From positions 1 to 64,000 of the forward strand of contig JAUXYM010000082.1 of NCBI GenBank assembly GCA_030694365.1: a stretch of 64,000 bases of DNA. Direction: 5' to 3'. Position numbers and translations under genes: made by a program. Source of the DNA: Nevskia sp. GTDB taxonomy: Bacteria; Pseudomonadota; Gammaproteobacteria; Nevskiales; Nevskiaceae. The notes beneath the pieces are model-generated. The model worked only from the letters and a program-made list of their open reading frames with translations, ran no database searches and was not told where the DNA came from. Of the stretch, positions 2,217-31,961 are shown piece after piece (position 1 is the first letter of the stretch; each line of letters starts with the position of its first letter).

Positions 2217-2942
2217 ATGCTCAACGCCCTGATCGAAGCGACTCGCAGCCAATTCCAGGGCCGCATGCTCGGCCTGGTGCTGTGGCCGCTGCTCGGTTCG
2301 TTGCTGCTGTGGACGCTGCTGCTGATCGTGTTCTGGTCGCAGGGCATGAGCGCCCTGCGGACGCTGACCGAGTACCAGCCGGTCGACGCCTTCCTGAGCG
2401 AATGGGGCCTGTCCTGGCTGGTCGGCGCGCTGACCCTGATCGTCAGCTTCTTCTTCCTGCCGACCCTGGTCGCGGCGACCGCGATCTTCATCACCTCGGT
2501 ATTCGCGATGCCGCTGATGGTTGATCACATCGCCGCCCGCGACTATCCGCAGCTGACGCGGGCCAAGGGCGGCACCACCAGCGGCAGCATCCTGAACAGC
2601 CTCGGCGCGCTGCTGGTCTATCTGCTGCTGTGGATTCTGGTGCTGCCGCTGTGGCTGATCCTGCCGTTCGCGTTCGTGATTCCGGTGGCGCTGGCCGGCT
2701 ATCTCAACGACCGCGTGTTCCGCTATGACGCGCTCGCCGAACATGCGACCCGCGAGGAGTACCGGGAAATTCTTCGTCGCCATGGTTCACCGCTGTTCGG
2801 CCTCGGCGTGGTCGCGGCACTCGTCCAGCTGATTCCCTTCGTCAACCTGATCTCGCCGGTCTACTCCGGCCTGAGCTTCATCCACTTCGCGCTCGCCGAA
2901 CTGCAGAAGATGCGCGGGGAAGCAGTGGTCCGTGGTCAGTGA
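2217..2942 (+). CDS. EI24 domain-containing (CysZ-like) membrane protein
   Basis: A 241-residue polytopic membrane protein. Hydrophobic segments lie at about residues 20-45, 65-105, 125-160 and 190-220. The sequence pattern (ARDYPQLTRAKGG, the LPLWLILPFAFVIPVALAGYLNDR segment, and YDALAEHATREEY near residues 170-190) fits the EI24/CysZ-like superfamily, which includes a sulfate permease in enterobacteria. Sulfate transport is not demonstrated here; the next gene encodes a TauE/SafE-type exporter, a family also linked to sulfur compounds, but it is on the opposite strand. The last seven residues (EAVVRGQ) and the stop codon are encoded by repeat family B, so the native C-terminus may have been replaced. 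Confidence 0.8.
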   Translation: MLNALIEATRSQFQGRMLGLVLWPLLGSLLLWTLLLIVFWSQGMSALRTLTEYQPVDAFLSEWGLSWLVGALTLIVSFFFLPTLVAATAIFITSVFAMPLMVDHIAARDYPQLTRAKGGTTSGSILNSLGALLVYLLLWILVLPLWLILPFAFVIPVALAGYLNDRVFRYDALAEHATREEYREILRRHGSPLFGLGVVAALVQLIPFVNLISPVYSGLSFIHFALAELQKMRGEAVVRGQ

Positions 2943-3025
2943 CTAGTGGTCAGAAAAAGCAAAGCACCAACCTGCTTCGCTTTTGATTCTCTGGCCACTG
3001 GCCACTAGCCACGGACCACTGCTTC
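2919..3025. repeat. Inverted repeat, family B, between convergent genes
   Basis: Left arm 2919-2953 (GAAGCAGTGGTCCGTGGTCAG...) and right arm 2991-3025 (...CCACGGACCACTGCTTC) pair almost fully around a 37-bp loop. Arms are built from GTGGTCAGTG/CTAGTGG units. The left arm runs into the 3' end of the EI24 gene and the right arm touches the stop codon of the convergent TauE gene. A transcript from either side would fold into a long hairpin, so it could act as a bidirectional transcription barrier (inference). Confidence 0.85.
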
Positions 3026-3812
3026 ACCCAAGCAACATCCGCGCGCTGATGCCGATCAGAAAGATCGCGAACGCCCGCTTGAGCAGCTTTGGCGACAGAC
3101 CATGCGCCAGCCGCGCCCCGAGCGGTGCGGTGAACACGCTCATCACCGCGATGCCGGCAAACGCGGCCATATCGACATAGCCGAGGCTCCACGGTGCACG
3201 GCCCGGGACGCCGAGGCCGTTGATCGCGAAGCCGACCGCGCCGGCCCAGGCGATCGGGATGCCGCAGGCCGCCGAGGTGCCGACGGCGCGACGCATGTCG
3301 ATGTTGCAAGCGTTCAGGTAAGGCACGGTCAGCGAACCGCCGCCGATGCCGATCAGGGCCGACAGGCCGCCGATAAAAGTGCCGACGATGCCGAGGCCGA
3401 GCGCACCCGGCGTGCTGCGCGTCGCTTTCGGCGTGGCGTCGATCAGCATCTGGATCGCGATCAGCAGCGCGCCGATGCCGACGCAGCGCTTCAGCACCTC
3501 GCTGCTGACCAGGTGCGCCACCGTGGCACCGATCAGGCTGCCGACGACGATGCCCGGTGCCAGCTTCCAGAACACCGGCCAGATCACGCCGCCGCGGGCG
3601 TGATGGGCGCGGGTCGAGGAAATGCCGGTCAGGCCGATCACCGCCAGCGAGGTGCCGATCGCCGAGTGCATCACCACGTCGGGAGAGGTGCCGAGGCCGG
3701 GCAGGATGAAGGCCAGCGCCGGCACCACGATCAGACCGCCGCCGACGCCGAACAGGCCGGCCAGCACGCCTGCAGCGGCACCGGTCAGCAGGAATACCAG
3801 CAGGGTTTCCAT
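3024..3812 (-). CDS. TauE/SafE family sulfite/organosulfonate exporter-like permease
   Basis: A 262-residue integral membrane protein of the TauE/SafE family, whose members move sulfite, sulfoacetate or other small anions. Two family-typical glycine-rich repeats are visible: GLFGVGGGLIVVPAL at about residues 20-35 and IGIGGGSLTVPYL at about 155-170, each preceding a hydrophobic segment. About eight membrane segments fit the length. The start is the ATG at 3812. The 17-bp gap to the divergent slt ORF region leaves a short shared promoter area. Substrate is unknown; no sulfur metabolic gene lies beside it apart from the convergent CysZ-like protein. Confidence 0.9.
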   Translation of the reverse strand: METLLVFLLTGAAAGVLAGLFGVGGGLIVVPALAFILPGLGTSPDVVMHSAIGTSLAVIGLTGISSTRAHHARGGVIWPVFWKLAPGIVVGSLIGATVAHLVSSEVLKRCVGIGALLIAIQMLIDATPKATRSTPGALGLGIVGTFIGGLSALIGIGGGSLTVPYLNACNIDMRRAVGTSAACGIPIAWAGAVGFAINGLGVPGRAPWSLGYVDMAAFAGIAVMSVFTAPLGARLAHGLSPKLLKRAFAIFLIGISARMLLG

Positions 3813-3886
3813 CGGCTAGGGCCTTACAATTGCGCGGGCCGCAAAGGCTACACGAACCCGTCAGGCAATCTGAGGGTCAGAGTTCC

Positions 3887-5887
3887 ATGATGACCCTACG
3901 TTCGACCCTGTCTCCCCTCTCGCTGGCCCTGGCATTTGCAGGCCTTTTCGCGCTGTCGGCCACCGCCGAAGACGATTCCCTGGCCATTGCGCGCAGTGAA
4001 TTCACGAGTGCTTTCACCGCCGCCGAAGCTGGTTCCTTCAATGGCGAAGACAGCGATCGCCTGCGCGCCTATCCGCTCTATTCCTATCTCACGGCTGCGC
4101 GACTGAAGGCGCGGCTGGCCCAAGTCCAGGCTCTGGCCAAGCCCGAGGACGATCGCGGTGCCGATGACGCGGTCGCCGCCTTCATCGCGGCCCAGGGCGG
4201 GACCTTGGCCGCCAACGATCTGCGCCGCGCCTGGCTGAGCAGCCTGGCGGCGCGCAAGCGCTGGGATCGCTATCTCGCAGCCCTGCCAGCCCCGTTGGCG
4301 ACCAGCGACACCAGCTTCCGCTGCCAGCAGTTCGCGGCGCGCATCGCGCTGAACCAGACCGCCGGTCTGGCGCCATTGGTAATCCAGCAATGGCAGGCGG
4401 CGAACCAATCGCTGCCGGCCTGCGATGCCGCATTCACCTGGGCCCGTGAGCAGAACCTGCTGACCCCGGCGCTGATCGAGGCGCGGGCGCGGCTGGTGGC
4501 CGGCAATGGTTTCAGCGCGCTGGCGAAAACCATCGCCGCACCGCTGGCGGCGGCAACCAGCGCACCGATCAGGCAATGGGCGGCGCTGATCGAACAGCCG
4601 CAGCGCGAACTCGATGCACTGATCGCCGATCCGTCACGGCCGGTGGAAGCGGTCGCGCTGCAGGACGGCTGGCAGCGCCTGGCCCGCAAGGACCCGGACG
4701 CTGCTGCCGCCCGCTACGCCGCGCTGCGCCAGTCACGCGCGCTTGACGACACTGCTGCCAGCCCGTTCGCCCGCGCGCTGGCACTCGGCATGGCCTGGAG
4801 TCGCAAGCCGGAAACGCTGGGCTACTTCGCGCAGGTGCTGCCGGCCGACAACGACAGCCTGTCCACCGAATGGTGGGCGCGTGCGGCGCTGTGGGCCGGC
4901 GACTGGCCGCAGGCGGCGAAAGCCATCGCGGCGATGTCCGACAGCCAGCGCAACGAACAGCGCTGGCGTTACTGGGCAGCACGGGCTGCCGCTGCCGGCG
5001 GCGATCCGGCAGCGAACGATCTGCTCGCCGCGCTGGCGCAGGAAGACGGCTGGTATCCGGCGCTCGCCGCCGCGCAGTCCGGCATCGCCTACGCACCGCA
5101 TCCGCAGACCCTGGCGGCCGATCCGGCGATGGTCGCGAAACTCGACAGCCAGGCCGGCTTCATCCGCGCTCGCGAGCTGTTCCTGTCGTCGCTGCGCAAT
5201 CAGGCGGCCGCCGAGTTCTGGGCGGCATTCGAGCCGCTCGATGAAACCGCGCGCTTCCAGGCCATCCACCTGGCGATGGGCTGGGGCTGGTACGAGCAGG
5301 GGGTGGCGGCCGCCAGCCGGATGAAGCTGTTCACCGATTACGCGCTGCTCTATCCGCGGCCCTATGAATCCCCGGTCAAGACGGGCGCGGCGCTGTCCGG
5401 TCTGCCGGACAACCTGATCTACGGCGTGCTGCGCCAGGAAAGCCTGTATCGGACCGATGCGGTATCGAGCGCCAACGCCTACGGCCTGCTGCAGATGCTG
5501 CCGGAAACCGCGACCCGCACCGCGCGCAAGTGGCAGCGTCCGCTGCCGACGCGCGCGACGCTGTTCGATCCCGAGGTCAACGTGCCGCTTGGGGCGGCGC
5601 ATCTGCGCGATCTGGTCGACCGCTTCACTGGCCAGCTGCCGGTGGCGATCGCCGGCTACAACGCCGGCCCGAACGCGGCGGCGCGCTGGCTGCCGGCGAC
5701 GCCGATGTCGGCGGACGTCTGGATCGAGAACATTCCTTACAACGAAACCCGTACCTACGTGCAGCGCGTGCTCTGGCATTCGATGGTGTTCGGCTGGTGC
5801 CAGCAGGGCAAGCCGCAACCGCTGTCGACCTGGCTGAAGCCAGTGGCGCTGGCACCGGTGCCGGCAGGCCTCGAAGAGATCCCATGA
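3887..5887 (+). CDS. slt: Soluble lytic murein transglycosylase
   Basis: A periplasmic enzyme cleaving the MurNAc-GlcNAc bond of peptidoglycan with 1,6-anhydro product formation. The ATG at 3887 (GAGG about 12 bp upstream) opens a typical signal peptide, with cleavage likely after ALSATA near residue 27; in-frame starts further upstream lack a signal. The mature protein has a long Ala-rich helical superhelix (about residues 30-480), then a family 1 SLT catalytic domain from about 500: [20 protein letters not shown] with the catalytic Glu at about residue 518, then [10 protein letters not shown] and AIAGYNAGP. Total 666 residues, close to E. coli Slt70. Its stop overlaps the cca start (ATGA). 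Confidence 0.95.
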
Positions 5888-28706: not shown

Positions 28707-28719
28707 AAGCTGTGGATAA
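28707..28719 (-). promoter_or_regulatory. DnaA box upstream of dnaA
   Basis: AAGCTGTGGATAA contains the perfect DnaA box TTATCCACA on the minus strand. The same 13-mer recurs in the origin region downstream of dnaA. A box here could serve dnaA autoregulation or a secondary origin element. Confidence 0.85.
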
Positions 28720-28836
28720 GCATAGTGGGCAACAGATATACTGCTAGCCCATCACGGTCCCGGCACGCCCGGCATCCGATCGTGATCGGGCTCGCCGCTG
28801 CAACCTTAATCTGCCTTGCCTATCGTTTTTTGCCCG

Positions 28837-30171
28837 ATGCTGAATCAAGACCTGTGGGACCGCTGCATTGCCCGGCTCGAAGCCGATCTTCCTGAAAAGG
28901 AGATCAGCACCTGGATCCGGCCGCTGCGCGTGGTGATGTCCGAAGACCAGATGACCTTGCTGGCACCGAATCGCATCGTCATGGATCGGGTCAAGAGCGA
29001 TTATCTCGGCCGCATCCAGCGGACCATGTCGAGTCTTGCCGCCTACGATGTGGTGGTCAACATCGCCGTCGGCGGCGTCAACGCGGAACCGGTTCGTGGC
29101 GCCAGCAACGGCGGCGGCAGTGCCCCGGCTCTCGACGACACCACGCCTTATGGCCGAGGCAAGCTGGACCCGCGCTATACCTTGTCCTCGTTCATCGAAG
29201 GCAAGTCGAATTCCCAGGCTCGCGCTGCCGGCCTGCAGGTCGCGTCCGCTCCAGGCGGCATTTACAACCCGCTGCTGATCTACGGTGAATCGGGCCTCGG
29301 CAAGACTCACCTGATGCACGGCATCGGCAACGCGATCCTTGCTGACAAGGCCAATGCCCGCATCGTTTATGTCGGCGCCGAGCAGTGGTTCAACCAGATG
29401 GTGTCGGCGATCCGCTACGGCCGGCAGGTCGAGTTCAAGAACTTCTACCGCACGGTCGATGCACTGCTGATCGACGACATCCACTTCCTGGCCGGAAAAG
29501 AGCACTCTCAGGAAGAATTCTTCCACACTTTCAATGCTTTGATCGATGGCCGCAAGCAGATCGTGCTGACCTGCGATCGCTATCCACGCGAACTGGATGC
29601 GCTCGACGATCGTCTGAAGTCGCGTTTCACCTGGGGCCTGTCGGTGCCGATCGAACCACCCGAGTTCGAAACCCGTATCGCGATCCTGCTGGCCAAGGCC
29701 GATGTACTGGGCGTGCGTTTGCCGGAGGACGTTGCGGTACTGGTGGCGCAGCGCATTCGCTCGAATGTCCGCGAACTCGAAGGTGCCCTGCATCGGCTGA
29801 ACGCTTCGGCGCGGCTGACCGGCGCGCCGATCACCACCGAATTCGCCCGGGTGACCCTGAAGGACATGCTGGCGTCCTATGACCGGGCGGTGACCCTGGA
29901 AAACATCAAGCGCACGGTGGCTGCCTACTACAACATCCGCTTGACCGATCTGAACTCGGTGCGGCGAACCCGCACTCTGGCGCGCCCACGCCAAATGGCG
30001 ATGGCTCTGTCCAAGGAATTAACGCGACACAGCTATCCGGAAATCGGCTCTGCTTTCGGCAAGGACCACACCACGGTGCTGCACGCTGTTCGCAAGATTG
30101 CCGAACTGCGTCTGGAAGACGATCGGCTCAAGGAAGACTACGAGAACCTGCTTCGTCAGCTGACCAACTGA
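28837..30171 (+). CDS. dnaA: Chromosomal replication initiator protein DnaA
   Basis: The AAA+ initiator that binds DnaA boxes and melts the origin. The ATG at 28837 gives 444 residues starting MLNQDLWDRCIARLEADLPE; a TTG 21 bp upstream is unlikely. Domain I is at about 1-85, a short Gly/Ser linker follows, domain III carries Walker A GESGLGKT at about 150-157 and Walker B LLIDDIHFLAGK, and domain IV ends with the DnaA-box-recognition motif FGKDHTTVLHAVRKI. The gene is divergent from rpmH and is followed by the origin region and dnaN. Confidence 0.98.
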   Translation: MLNQDLWDRCIARLEADLPEKEISTWIRPLRVVMSEDQMTLLAPNRIVMDRVKSDYLGRIQRTMSSLAAYDVVVNIAVGGVNAEPVRGASNGGGSAPALDDTTPYGRGKLDPRYTLSSFIEGKSNSQARAAGLQVASAPGGIYNPLLIYGESGLGKTHLMHGIGNAILADKANARIVYVGAEQWFNQMVSAIRYGRQVEFKNFYRTVDALLIDDIHFLAGKEHSQEEFFHTFNALIDGRKQIVLTCDRYPRELDALDDRLKSRFTWGLSVPIEPPEFETRIAILLAKADVLGVRLPEDVAVLVAQRIRSNVRELEGALHRLNASARLTGAPITTEFARVTLKDMLASYDRAVTLENIKRTVAAYYNIRLTDLNSVRRTRTLARPRQMAMALSKELTRHSYPEIGSAFGKDHTTVLHAVRKIAELRLEDDRLKEDYENLLRQLTN

Positions 30172-30216
30172 GGAATTCGGCGAAAACTGCGTTCGCCGTT
30201 GAGGAAAACTGAGGGC

Positions 30217-30229
30217 AAGCTGTGGATAA
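30217..30229 (-). promoter_or_regulatory. DnaA box, origin site 1
   Basis: AAGCTGTGGATAA; perfect TTATCCACA on the minus strand, 46 bp after the dnaA stop codon. Confidence 0.88.
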
Positions 30230-30251
30230 GTGTTGTAGCAGCACTGAACGT

Positions 30252-30291
30252 CTTTTTATCCACAGCTTTGTCCCGCTGTTTCGACAGCTTG
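30252..30291 (+). repeat. 40-bp origin direct repeat, copy 1 (with DnaA box 2)
   Basis: Starts CTTTTTATCCACAGCTTT and continues to TTTCGACAGCTTG. The DnaA box TTATCCACA is at 30256-30264. The copy at 30681-30720 is identical at 37 of 40 positions. The part after the box (GTTTCGACAGC) is conserved beyond what a DnaA box needs. Confidence 0.88.
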
Positions 30292-30309
30292 CCGAGGGCG
30301 GCAGCAAGG

Positions 30310-30371
30310 TACAAAAATAAATTCAAGTAATTGATTATTAACGAATAAGTTATTTCATCAACAGATATTGG
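30310..30371. other. Candidate DNA unwinding element
   Basis: A strongly AT-rich stretch with runs such as ACAAAAATAAATTC and TTGATTATTAACG lies directly after DnaA box 2. In a genome of this GC content it is the most easily melted sequence visible in the window. Assignment rests on composition and position only. Confidence 0.6.
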
Positions 30372-30645
30372 CTTCGACTACTAATACTGATGTTTGAAAG
30401 ATTCAAGACATCTTGTTAGCTGTTACGTAGAACCGCTGAGCAAAAAGTCAGCATTATTTCCGGACTCAGTATCGAGTGACCCGGACCCAGGCTTGCAAGC
30501 CAACTGACAGCAATCTGAAAATGCTCCATTACGGCACGCTCGCAAAAATCGGGACCAAGACCTGAACTTGACGGACAGGCGCACGCAAGGAAGCCGGTGA
30601 AGAAGTGCTGGATCGTCACAAAAACGATGGAAAGAGCGCTAGAAC

Positions 30646-30658
30646 AAGCTGTGTATAA
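30646..30658 (-). promoter_or_regulatory. DnaA box, origin site 3
   Basis: AAGCTGTGTATAA, giving TTATACACA on the minus strand, which still fits the TTATNCACA consensus. It is 26 bp from origin site 4 and inverted relative to it, echoing the arrangement of sites 1 and 2. Confidence 0.8.
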
Positions 30659-30680
30659 TCGATTGAATGCTTCGGGATGG

Positions 30681-30720
30681 CTTTTTATCCACAGCTTTAT
30701 CCCGGTGTTTCGACAGCCTG
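30681..30720 (+). repeat. 40-bp origin direct repeat, copy 2 (with DnaA box 4)
   Basis: CTTTTTATCCACAGCTTT to TTTCGACAGCCTG; box TTATCCACA at 30685-30693. It differs from copy 1 at three positions. Confidence 0.88.
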
Positions 30721-30860
30721 AGGGGGGCTTCAACGCCACCGTCTACTATCAAATAAAGCCTTGATAAGTAAGCACTAATAGCTTCTGTCCACAGGCAAGG
30801 CGTCAGACTATTAGAACTACTCTTTAAAGATTTAAAACAATCTATTCAATTGGTCTGCTC

Positions 30861-31961
30861 ATGAACATCCAGATTTCCCGCGGTGAACTGCTGTCAGCGC
30901 TGCAGTCGGTCATCGGTGTGGTCGAACGCAGGCAATCCCTGCCGATCCTCGGGAATCTGCTGTTGGAAGCGAAAGACGATCGCCTAAGCTTGACCGGCAC
31001 CGATCTGGAACTGCAGGTCGAGCGCATGGTGCGTGTGCAGAACCTGGCACCTGGCCGCATCACCGCACCCGCCCGCAAGCTGCACGACATCTGTCGTGGC
31101 TTGCCGGAAGGCGCGATGCTCAGCCTCGAATATGCCGACAACAAGCTGACCTTGAAGTCCGGCCGCAGCCGCTTTGCACTCGCAACACTTCCGGCCGAAG
31201 AGTTTCCAGTCTTCGCCTCGGACCCAACCGATTTGCAACTGGAACTGAGCAATCGCGAACTGAAGGATCTGCTCTCACGCACCCAGTTCGCGATGGCTCA
31301 GCAGGACGTTCGCTACTACCTGAACGGACTGTTGCTGGAGATTCGTCCCGGCCGCCTGCGTACCGTGGCCACTGACGGTCATCGTCTGGCTATGGCCGAA
31401 CTGAATCGCGAACTGAGCGCGAAGAAGGACACCCAGGTGATTCTGCCGCGCAAGACGGTCATCGAACTGCAGCGCCTGCTCGACGTCAGCGATGCGCCGG
31501 TCAAGCTGTCGCTGACCAGCAACCAGATCCAGGTTGATCTCGAAGACCTGCGCCTGACGTCGAAGTTGATCGAAGGCCGCTTCCCTGATTACGAGCGGGT
31601 GATTCCGGAAGATTCGGACAAGGTCATCAAGTGTGGCCGTTTGAAGGTGCGTGCCGCCCTCGCACGTGCGGCGATCCTGTCGAATGAGAAATTCCGTGGC
31701 GTGCGTCTGACGCTTGAAGCCGACACGCTGCGCATCCAGACCCAGAACCCGGAGCAGGAAGAAGCCGAGGAAGAAGTCGAAATCGAGTACAGCGGGGCAC
31801 CGCTGGAGATCGGCTTCAACGTCAGCTATCTGCTCGACGCGCTCGATGCCATCGAAGGCGAGGAGTTCATCTTCAAGCTGCGCAGCTCGGATGCCAGCGG
31901 CCTGATCCACGATGCAGCCCAGGCCAGCGGCAAGTTCGTGGTCATGCCGATGCGGCTCTGA
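30861..31961 (+). CDS. dnaN: DNA polymerase III beta sliding clamp
   Basis: The ring-shaped clamp that tethers polymerases to DNA; 366 residues, the exact length of E. coli DnaN. The N-terminus MNIQISRGELLSALQSVIGV and RRQSLPILGNLLLEA, the central QDVRYYLNGLLLEI segment with TDGHRLAMAEL, and the C-terminal FVVMPMRL are family hallmarks. It follows the origin region and precedes recF by 30 bp. Confidence 0.98.
   Translation: MNIQISRGELLSALQSVIGVVERRQSLPILGNLLLEAKDDRLSLTGTDLELQVERMVRVQNLAPGRITAPARKLHDICRGLPEGAMLSLEYADNKLTLKSGRSRFALATLPAEEFPVFASDPTDLQLELSNRELKDLLSRTQFAMAQQDVRYYLNGLLLEIRPGRLRTVATDGHRLAMAELNRELSAKKDTQVILPRKTVIELQRLLDVSDAPVKLSLTSNQIQVDLEDLRLTSKLIEGRFPDYERVIPEDSDKVIKCGRLKVRAALARAAILSNEKFRGVRLTLEADTLRIQTQNPEQEEAEEEVEIEYSGAPLEIGFNVSYLLDALDAIEGEEFIFKLRSSDASGLIHDAAQASGKFVVMPMRL

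Follow-up and report, generated by a model that had tools for sequence, protein, structure and literature searches.

Does the intergenic region between dnaA and dnaN of this Nevskia sp. genome hold a single replication origin with some repeated DnaA boxes, or has the origin itself been duplicated? In a dnaA-dnaN gap, DnaA boxes as such come as no surprise, whereas a duplication does. An initial annotation of the stretch of 64,000 nucleotides analysed here (the window) had proposed an origin with five extended 13-bp DnaA boxes and a duplicated 40-bp module. We have followed up this proposal by comparing the region with the dnaA-dnaN gaps of related genomes.

The dnaA-dnaN gap and its DnaA boxes

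The window belongs to a draft genome (GCA_030694365.1; 3.08 Mb in 124 contigs, 89% complete). Gene names, assigned by reading the ORF translations, gave the order mnmE, yidC, rnpA and rpmH on the minus strand, followed by dnaA, dnaN, recF and gyrB on the plus strand, and this mnmE-to-gyrB set is the usual neighbourhood of oriC. The nearest named relative is Nevskia sp. D1_Bin_28 (L005; 92% identity in DnaN), which was counted together with L121 as one because their gap, DnaA identity and score values are identical; further close relatives are same-genus genomes with DnaN identities of up to 98%. Cumulative skew minima, calculated for a 64-kb window of a genome in 124 contigs, were located at 18.8 kb (GC) and 23.3 kb (RY), that is, 7-12 kb to the left of the origin, a shift that local gene composition may explain.

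DnaN was found in 56 of the 58 family genomes. Leaving out the genome under study, two genomes with a truncated dnaN (G015, G035) and two without dnaN (G012, G055), the gap could be measured in 53 relatives. It spans 216-302 bp in all 53, compared with 689 bp here. The two nearest relatives have gaps of 259 and 260 bp, which leaves an excess of 429-430 bp in the window. The genes, boxes and repeats at the locus are as follows, where c1 and c2 designate the origin copies next to dnaA and dnaN, respectively.

28707-28719, plus strand: dnaA-promoter DnaA box, outside the duplication; perfect box upstream of dnaA in 19 of 19 genomes
28837-30171, plus strand: dnaA (ORF; 97.3% amino acid identity to L115 and L116)
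30217-30229, plus strand: c1 DnaA box 1, AAGCTGTGGATAA
30252-30299, plus strand: 48-bp direct repeat in c1, best-kept part of the duplication, with TTTCGACAGC at 30279-30288
30256-30268, minus strand: c1 DnaA box 2, TTATCCACAGCTT on the plus strand
30646-30658, plus strand: c2 DnaA box 1, AAGCTGTGTATAA, with an ancestral T also present in L115-L121
30681-30728, plus strand: 48-bp direct repeat in c2
30685-30697, minus strand: c2 DnaA box 2
30861-31961, plus strand: dnaN (ORF; 98% amino acid identity to G001 and G008)

All five boxes lie where the initial annotation had placed them (28707, 30217 and 30646 on the plus strand; 30256 and 30685 on the minus strand). Four of them are exact copies of AAGCTGTGGATAA, a 13-mer that occurs four times in the 3.08-Mb draft, always at this locus, and for which simple arithmetic gives a chance expectation of ∼0.002 in 64 kb on both strands; with one mismatch allowed, it is found at seven places in the draft, two of them on other contigs. 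The remaining box, at 30646, reads AAGCTGTGTATAA and had been regarded as a copy changed from G to T. This form is carried by all seven closest relatives (L115-L121), so it is ancestral and not decayed. The box at 28707, ∼125 bp 5′ of dnaA, had been counted among the five boxes of the origin. Since all 19 genomes checked (the window and 18 of the 53 relatives) have a box of this type in their dnaA promoter region, it is the ordinary dnaA autoregulation box and does not form part of the duplication.

The other four boxes form two inverted pairs with exactly 26 nt between the arms in both, within the 26-27 bp originally given, and the distance from one pair to the other, reported as 390 bp, measured 377 bp (30268 to 30646). 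The 40-bp direct repeats (30252-30291 and 30681-30720) were also present, with 37 of 40 positions identical, and the right-hand repeat grows beyond 40 bp to 48 bp at 88% identity. In addition, the left arms, that is, box 1 of each pair, recur at the same offset of 429 bp as the 40-bp repeats, which implies that the duplicated unit is larger than 40 bp. This offset equals the excess length of the gap, which is too long by one origin.

Full-length origin copies and their anatomy

A nucleotide profile HMM was built from the dnaA-dnaN gaps of the 53 relatives, with the window excluded, and used to search the 64-kb window with nhmmer. The search returned two full-length matches, both on the plus strand, which were also scored with R1, a sequence-only covariance model derived from the origins of 52 of the 53 relatives (alignment A1; L136 left out), again with the window excluded.

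30197-30413, plus strand: c1, extra complete oriC copy (nhmmer E = 2.4e-19; R1 64.0 bits)
30414-30611: spacer between c1 and c2, ∼200 bp, 54% GC
30618-30857, plus strand: c2, oriC ortholog of the relatives' single origin (nhmmer E = 7.3e-31; R1 78.3 bits; 79-85% identity to close relatives)

The R1 matches extend from 30217 to 30406 in c1 and from 30645 to 30838 in c2, and with R1 c1 scores higher than the origin does in 12 of the 53 other family genomes. The right half of c1 (30292-30413), which contains no strong boxes, matched the HMM on its own with E = 2.1e-10; to blastn, c1 is hardly visible beyond ∼75 bp. Both copies sit between dnaA and dnaN of the rpmH-dnaA-dnaN-recF-gyrB cluster, the position of the gammaproteobacterial dnaA-dnaN oriC. 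The idea of a duplicated origin module is supported by these matches, the duplicated unit being an entire origin, about 200-260 bp long, and not the 40-bp module. The AT-rich block noted between the two inverted pairs is made up of c1's own unwinding region plus unrelated spacer.

The same elements follow one another in c1 and c2: the inverted boxes 1 and 2, weaker box-like sites, an IHF consensus, box 3, 14 bp, CTA-type triplets and an AT-rich tail.

30324-30336, plus strand: c1 IHF-consensus site CAAGTAATTGATT, a consensus match that keeps the relatives' distance to the 3′ end
30355-30363, plus strand: c1 DnaA box 3, TCATCAACA, two mismatches, adjoining the unwinding element
30378-30395, plus strand: c1 DnaA-trios CTA CTA ATA CTG ATG TTT, 14 bp past box 3 (BUS rule)
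30754-30766, plus strand: c2 IHF-consensus site TAAAGCCTTGATA, a consensus match
30785-30793, plus strand: c2 DnaA box 3, CTGTCCACA, two mismatches
30808-30825, plus strand: c2 trio-like run CTA TTA gAA CTA CTC TTT, interrupted

The intervals from box 1 to box 2, box 3 and the trios are 35/99/23 in c1 and 35/100/23 in c2, and 35/100-101/23 in the close relatives where all sites were called. Across the genera of the family, the inverted strong boxes mostly lie 23, 35 or 45-46 bp from each other, about two, three or four helical turns, and the distance from box 3 to the trios is constant at 23 bp in the origins where both were called. The sites at 30324 and 30754 were assigned with the IHF consensus. 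In both copies the candidate IHF site lies between the strong boxes and the DUE, 107-108 bp from the 3′ end of the unit, and matches to the consensus on this strand are present in 19 of the 55 origin copies (53 relatives, c1 and c2) versus 0.63 expected. Three HU/IHF-family genes are encoded in the genome.

BUS (basal unwinding system) origins are described, in the portion of PMC8287927 consulted, as a DnaA box, a spacer of at most 16 bp and DnaA-trios. Our implementation of this published rule called a box with no more than two mismatches, a spacer of at most 16 bp and at least three trios, the first triplet starting with C. It recognized c1, with its six uninterrupted triplets, as well as 7 of the 10 outer relatives tested. 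It did not recognize c2, where a third triplet GAA breaks the run, nor any of the seven close relatives L115-L121, whose third triplet is AAA or GAA. Because c2 and these seven relatives fail the strict uninterrupted-trio rule, trio counts are weak evidence for function. Furthermore, box 3 of c1 is weaker, and its trio-proximal spacer less GC-rich, than in the relatives. A promoter scan of c1 and c2 on the dnaN strand found none, only one terminator-like stem was present (30435-30452), fewer than the shuffle mean, and an Rfam scan yielded one sub-threshold match only, located inside dnaA, and no RNA gene.

Beyond box 2, the two repeats share TTTCGACAGC, for which the initial annotation had raised the binding of another factor, to be checked by a search in related origins. 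The motif is exact in c1, c2, L115 and L116, that is, in only two of the seven close relatives, and nothing found here points to another factor. A stretch of ∼22 bp that includes a box-like TTATCCCGG/TTGTCCCGC separates it from box 2, and in the family alignment the strong box of other genera is located 11-12 bp beyond the position of the Nevskia box 2. This arrangement fits a weak third DnaA box within an array of ∼11-bp pitch, to which DnaA may bind. The exact match in four origin copies would also suit a site for a different origin-binding factor; we consider this unlikely, since the motif is not conserved in the remaining five close relatives and both its spacing from box 2 and the box columns of other genera suit a weak third DnaA box.

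Divergence of c1 and proposed working of the two units

Identity to the close relatives is 79-85% for c2 and 70-78% for c1. At the level of sequence comparison, c2, which adjoins dnaN, is the ancestral oriC and c1, which adjoins dnaA, an extra diverged copy; the divergence between the two is as large as that between different species within this Nevskia clade. The agreement of c1 with the consensus of the close clade at variable columns is 0.58, compared with 0.59 for L121 and at most 0.46 for other family members, a grouping that assigns c1 to the Nevskia clade. The maximum-likelihood tree is in tension with this result, as it places c1 on a long branch just outside the close clade (support 70). 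At family-conserved columns, c1 keeps 32 of 37 positions, a value equal to or above that of 40 of the 52 other origins (leave-one-out), and its substitutions relative to the close-clade consensus are only weakly depleted at conserved columns (30/39 versus 90/155, P = 0.04). We read this conservation as an indication of long separate survival under selection.

Candidate routes to c1 are a local duplication near the base of the Nevskia clade or an import from one of its members. After a plain tandem duplication, a relic of dnaA or dnaN would be expected in the spacer, and the fact that none was detectable counts against this route: scores for a dnaA-3′ and a dnaN-5′ relic were not significant (local alignment z of 1.4 and 1.2; fixed-offset identity of 0.32 and 0.27), and neither was the comparison with the relatives' dnaA ends (0.29 against a background of 0.26). 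The spacer (30414-30611) had no match in the 57 other family genomes. A mobile source of c1 plus spacer was considered and discarded, since neither 72,556 plasmid nor 50,697 phage records gave a match. Finally, c1 and c2 agree at 32 of 35 variable columns inside the 48-bp block and at 59 of 120 outside it; this is suggestive only of a gene conversion of the block between the copies, because the same block is also the best kept among the relatives.

Taken together, we find it quite probable that the gap contains two complete origins arranged in tandem and in the same orientation, the ancestral c2 and the extra c1, which would work as IHF-assisted BUS-type origins, with c2 as the main one and c1 probably competent. 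In each unit, DnaA would bind the divergent strong boxes 1 and 2 together with their weaker neighbours, IHF would bend the DNA and carry the DnaA complex to box 3, and from there DnaA would extend onto the DnaA-trios and open the AT-rich tail, with the helicase being loaded on the dnaN side. As the units are 429 bp apart, the first to assemble would fire and the other would be copied passively by the fork. With such passive copying, the second unit would provide more capacity for binding DnaA and another site for opening, as a back-up or an alternative, but not a second replicon. The main origin is most likely c2. As for c1, it is probably kept under selection and competent, because it has consensus strong boxes and the uninterrupted trio run that c2 is without.

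It is also quite possible, although we do not favour it, that c2 is the only origin and that c1 is a former one, whose present role would be to bind DnaA, either titrating it or adjusting initiation and the expression of dnaN. The best strong boxes are those of c1, both exact consensus, but box 3 of c1 is poorer (TCATCAACA) and its spacer to the trios low in GC, and bipartite origins, as treated in the part of PMC4285127 consulted, carry a DUE in one sub-region only. Nevertheless, a pure titration site needs boxes alone, and c1 has kept its downstream half, that is, the IHF site, the 14-bp spacer, six uninterrupted trios and the AT-rich tail.

An assembly artefact joining the origins of two strains in a metagenome contig is conceivable in a draft genome that is 89% complete and in 124 contigs, all the more as no independent copy of the duplication was found. 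We regard it as very improbable. Nucleotide identity to L115 and L116 is 81-97% in dnaA windows and 90-91% in dnaN, so that the two flanks are equally close to the same relatives and no change of strain is visible. Moreover, a single join would put dnaA 3′ sequence before c2, and the spacer is not dnaA; it would also predict for c1 the divergence of a close strain's origin, but the divergence of c1 far exceeds that of dnaA at a distance of 50 bp. The assembly has no other origin contig. There is hardly any reason to think that c1 is merely a second DnaA-box cluster in AT-rich DNA. The agreement of only 59 of 120 variable columns outside the 48-bp block and the faint blastn signal past ∼75 bp could be expected from such a cluster; the match of the c1 half without strong boxes (E = 2e-10), the preserved order and spacing of its elements and the lack of any other second match at E ≤ 1e-6 in the 85 genomes of the order could not.

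Other genomes and known origins

We searched the order and the class with the same model. In the order, 77 of the 85 genomes gave a match at E ≤ 1e-6 and only this Nevskia sp. genome gave two; no second genome with the c1-c2 duplication was found in the family and order censuses. In the class, 158 of a spread of 321 gammaproteobacterial genomes matched at E ≤ 1e-5, and nine genomes with multiple matches (L180-L188) were taken for a closer look, the remaining ones either being judged from the match list to represent opposite-strand overlaps or distant matches or, as with G265, being left out. In six of the nine, but not in L185, L186 and L188, two or three matches on the same strand fall within 1 kb.

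L180 (G107), 623-1054: tandem origin-like modules
L181 (G304), 2658-3434: tandem origin-like modules; repeat of 136 bp, 79% identity, 338-bp period
L182 (G218), 3359-3844: tandem origin-like modules
L183 (G330), 3072-3891: tandem origin-like modules
L184 (G188), 216-990: tandem origin-like modules; repeat of 98 bp, 74% identity, 294-bp period
L187 (G313), 3094-3564: tandem origin-like modules

These modules resemble c1-c2 in that several same-strand matches to the origin model lie close together. They differ in lying upstream of dnaA, in the rpmH-dnaA gap, or adjoining rpmH, in more AT-rich genomes and with weaker scores (24-41 bits), and were presumably gained separately from the Nevskia case. 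Their presence in six other genomes suggests that small tandem origin duplications probably arose more than once in Gammaproteobacteria. Only tentatively would we go further and propose that c1 and c2 are two independently competent tandem origins, both kept by selection, and that, with small duplications recurring in Gammaproteobacteria, duplication and replacement would be part of normal oriC evolution.

Each copy reproduces the elements, order and spacing of the single dnaA-dnaN oriC of Nevskia and its family (L115-L167), which is present once per gap in 53 of 53 genomes measured and twice here. In relation to the BUS origins covered by the portion of PMC8287927 consulted, c1 conforms to the published rule as implemented here, whereas the arrangement of two such modules in tandem and the interrupted trio run of c2 and its close relatives depart from it. 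The bipartite origins of B. subtilis and H. pylori, according to the part of PMC4285127 consulted, have a gene, usually dnaA, between two box clusters and a DUE in only one of them; the present locus likewise has two DnaA-box clusters at dnaA, but no gene separates c1 from c2 and both have a DUE-like half. Putative double origins lying close together have been attributed to duplication in Acidaminococcus fermentans and M. bovis BCG Pasteur (Gao 2015, PMC4403523, sections consulted). In those cases dnaA or the whole rnpA-gyrA block is duplicated, whereas the present gap has gained only ∼430 bp, and its two copies are old and diverged. In the open PMC literature, the scope of our search, we found among the papers listed no description of a natural tandem duplication of oriC within one intergenic region; the part of "The DnaA Tale" consulted (PMC5835720) held nothing relevant to it.

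From this locus it may be learnt whether two start sites can both work next to each other on one natural chromosome. Its two conserved units, 429 bp apart, are small enough to be cloned and deleted singly, and the pair can serve to test the response of DnaA, IHF and once-per-cycle control to a double unit, and whether origins evolve by duplication and replacement. It also offers a natural two-copy comparison of the constrained parts of a BUS/IHF-type origin.

Long gaps are also seen elsewhere. Among 80 named loci, both genes were present in 77 (L026, L029 and L032, without dnaA, were left out), and the gap exceeded 302 bp in two only, both from Candidatus Competibacter (L034 and L050; 571 and 572 bp). 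Considered as a possible second case of duplication, these two gaps gave one model match each and correspond to an expanded box array: they contain 11-12 perfect DnaA boxes, the upstream ones in one orientation and the downstream ones in the other, forming a large mirrored array.
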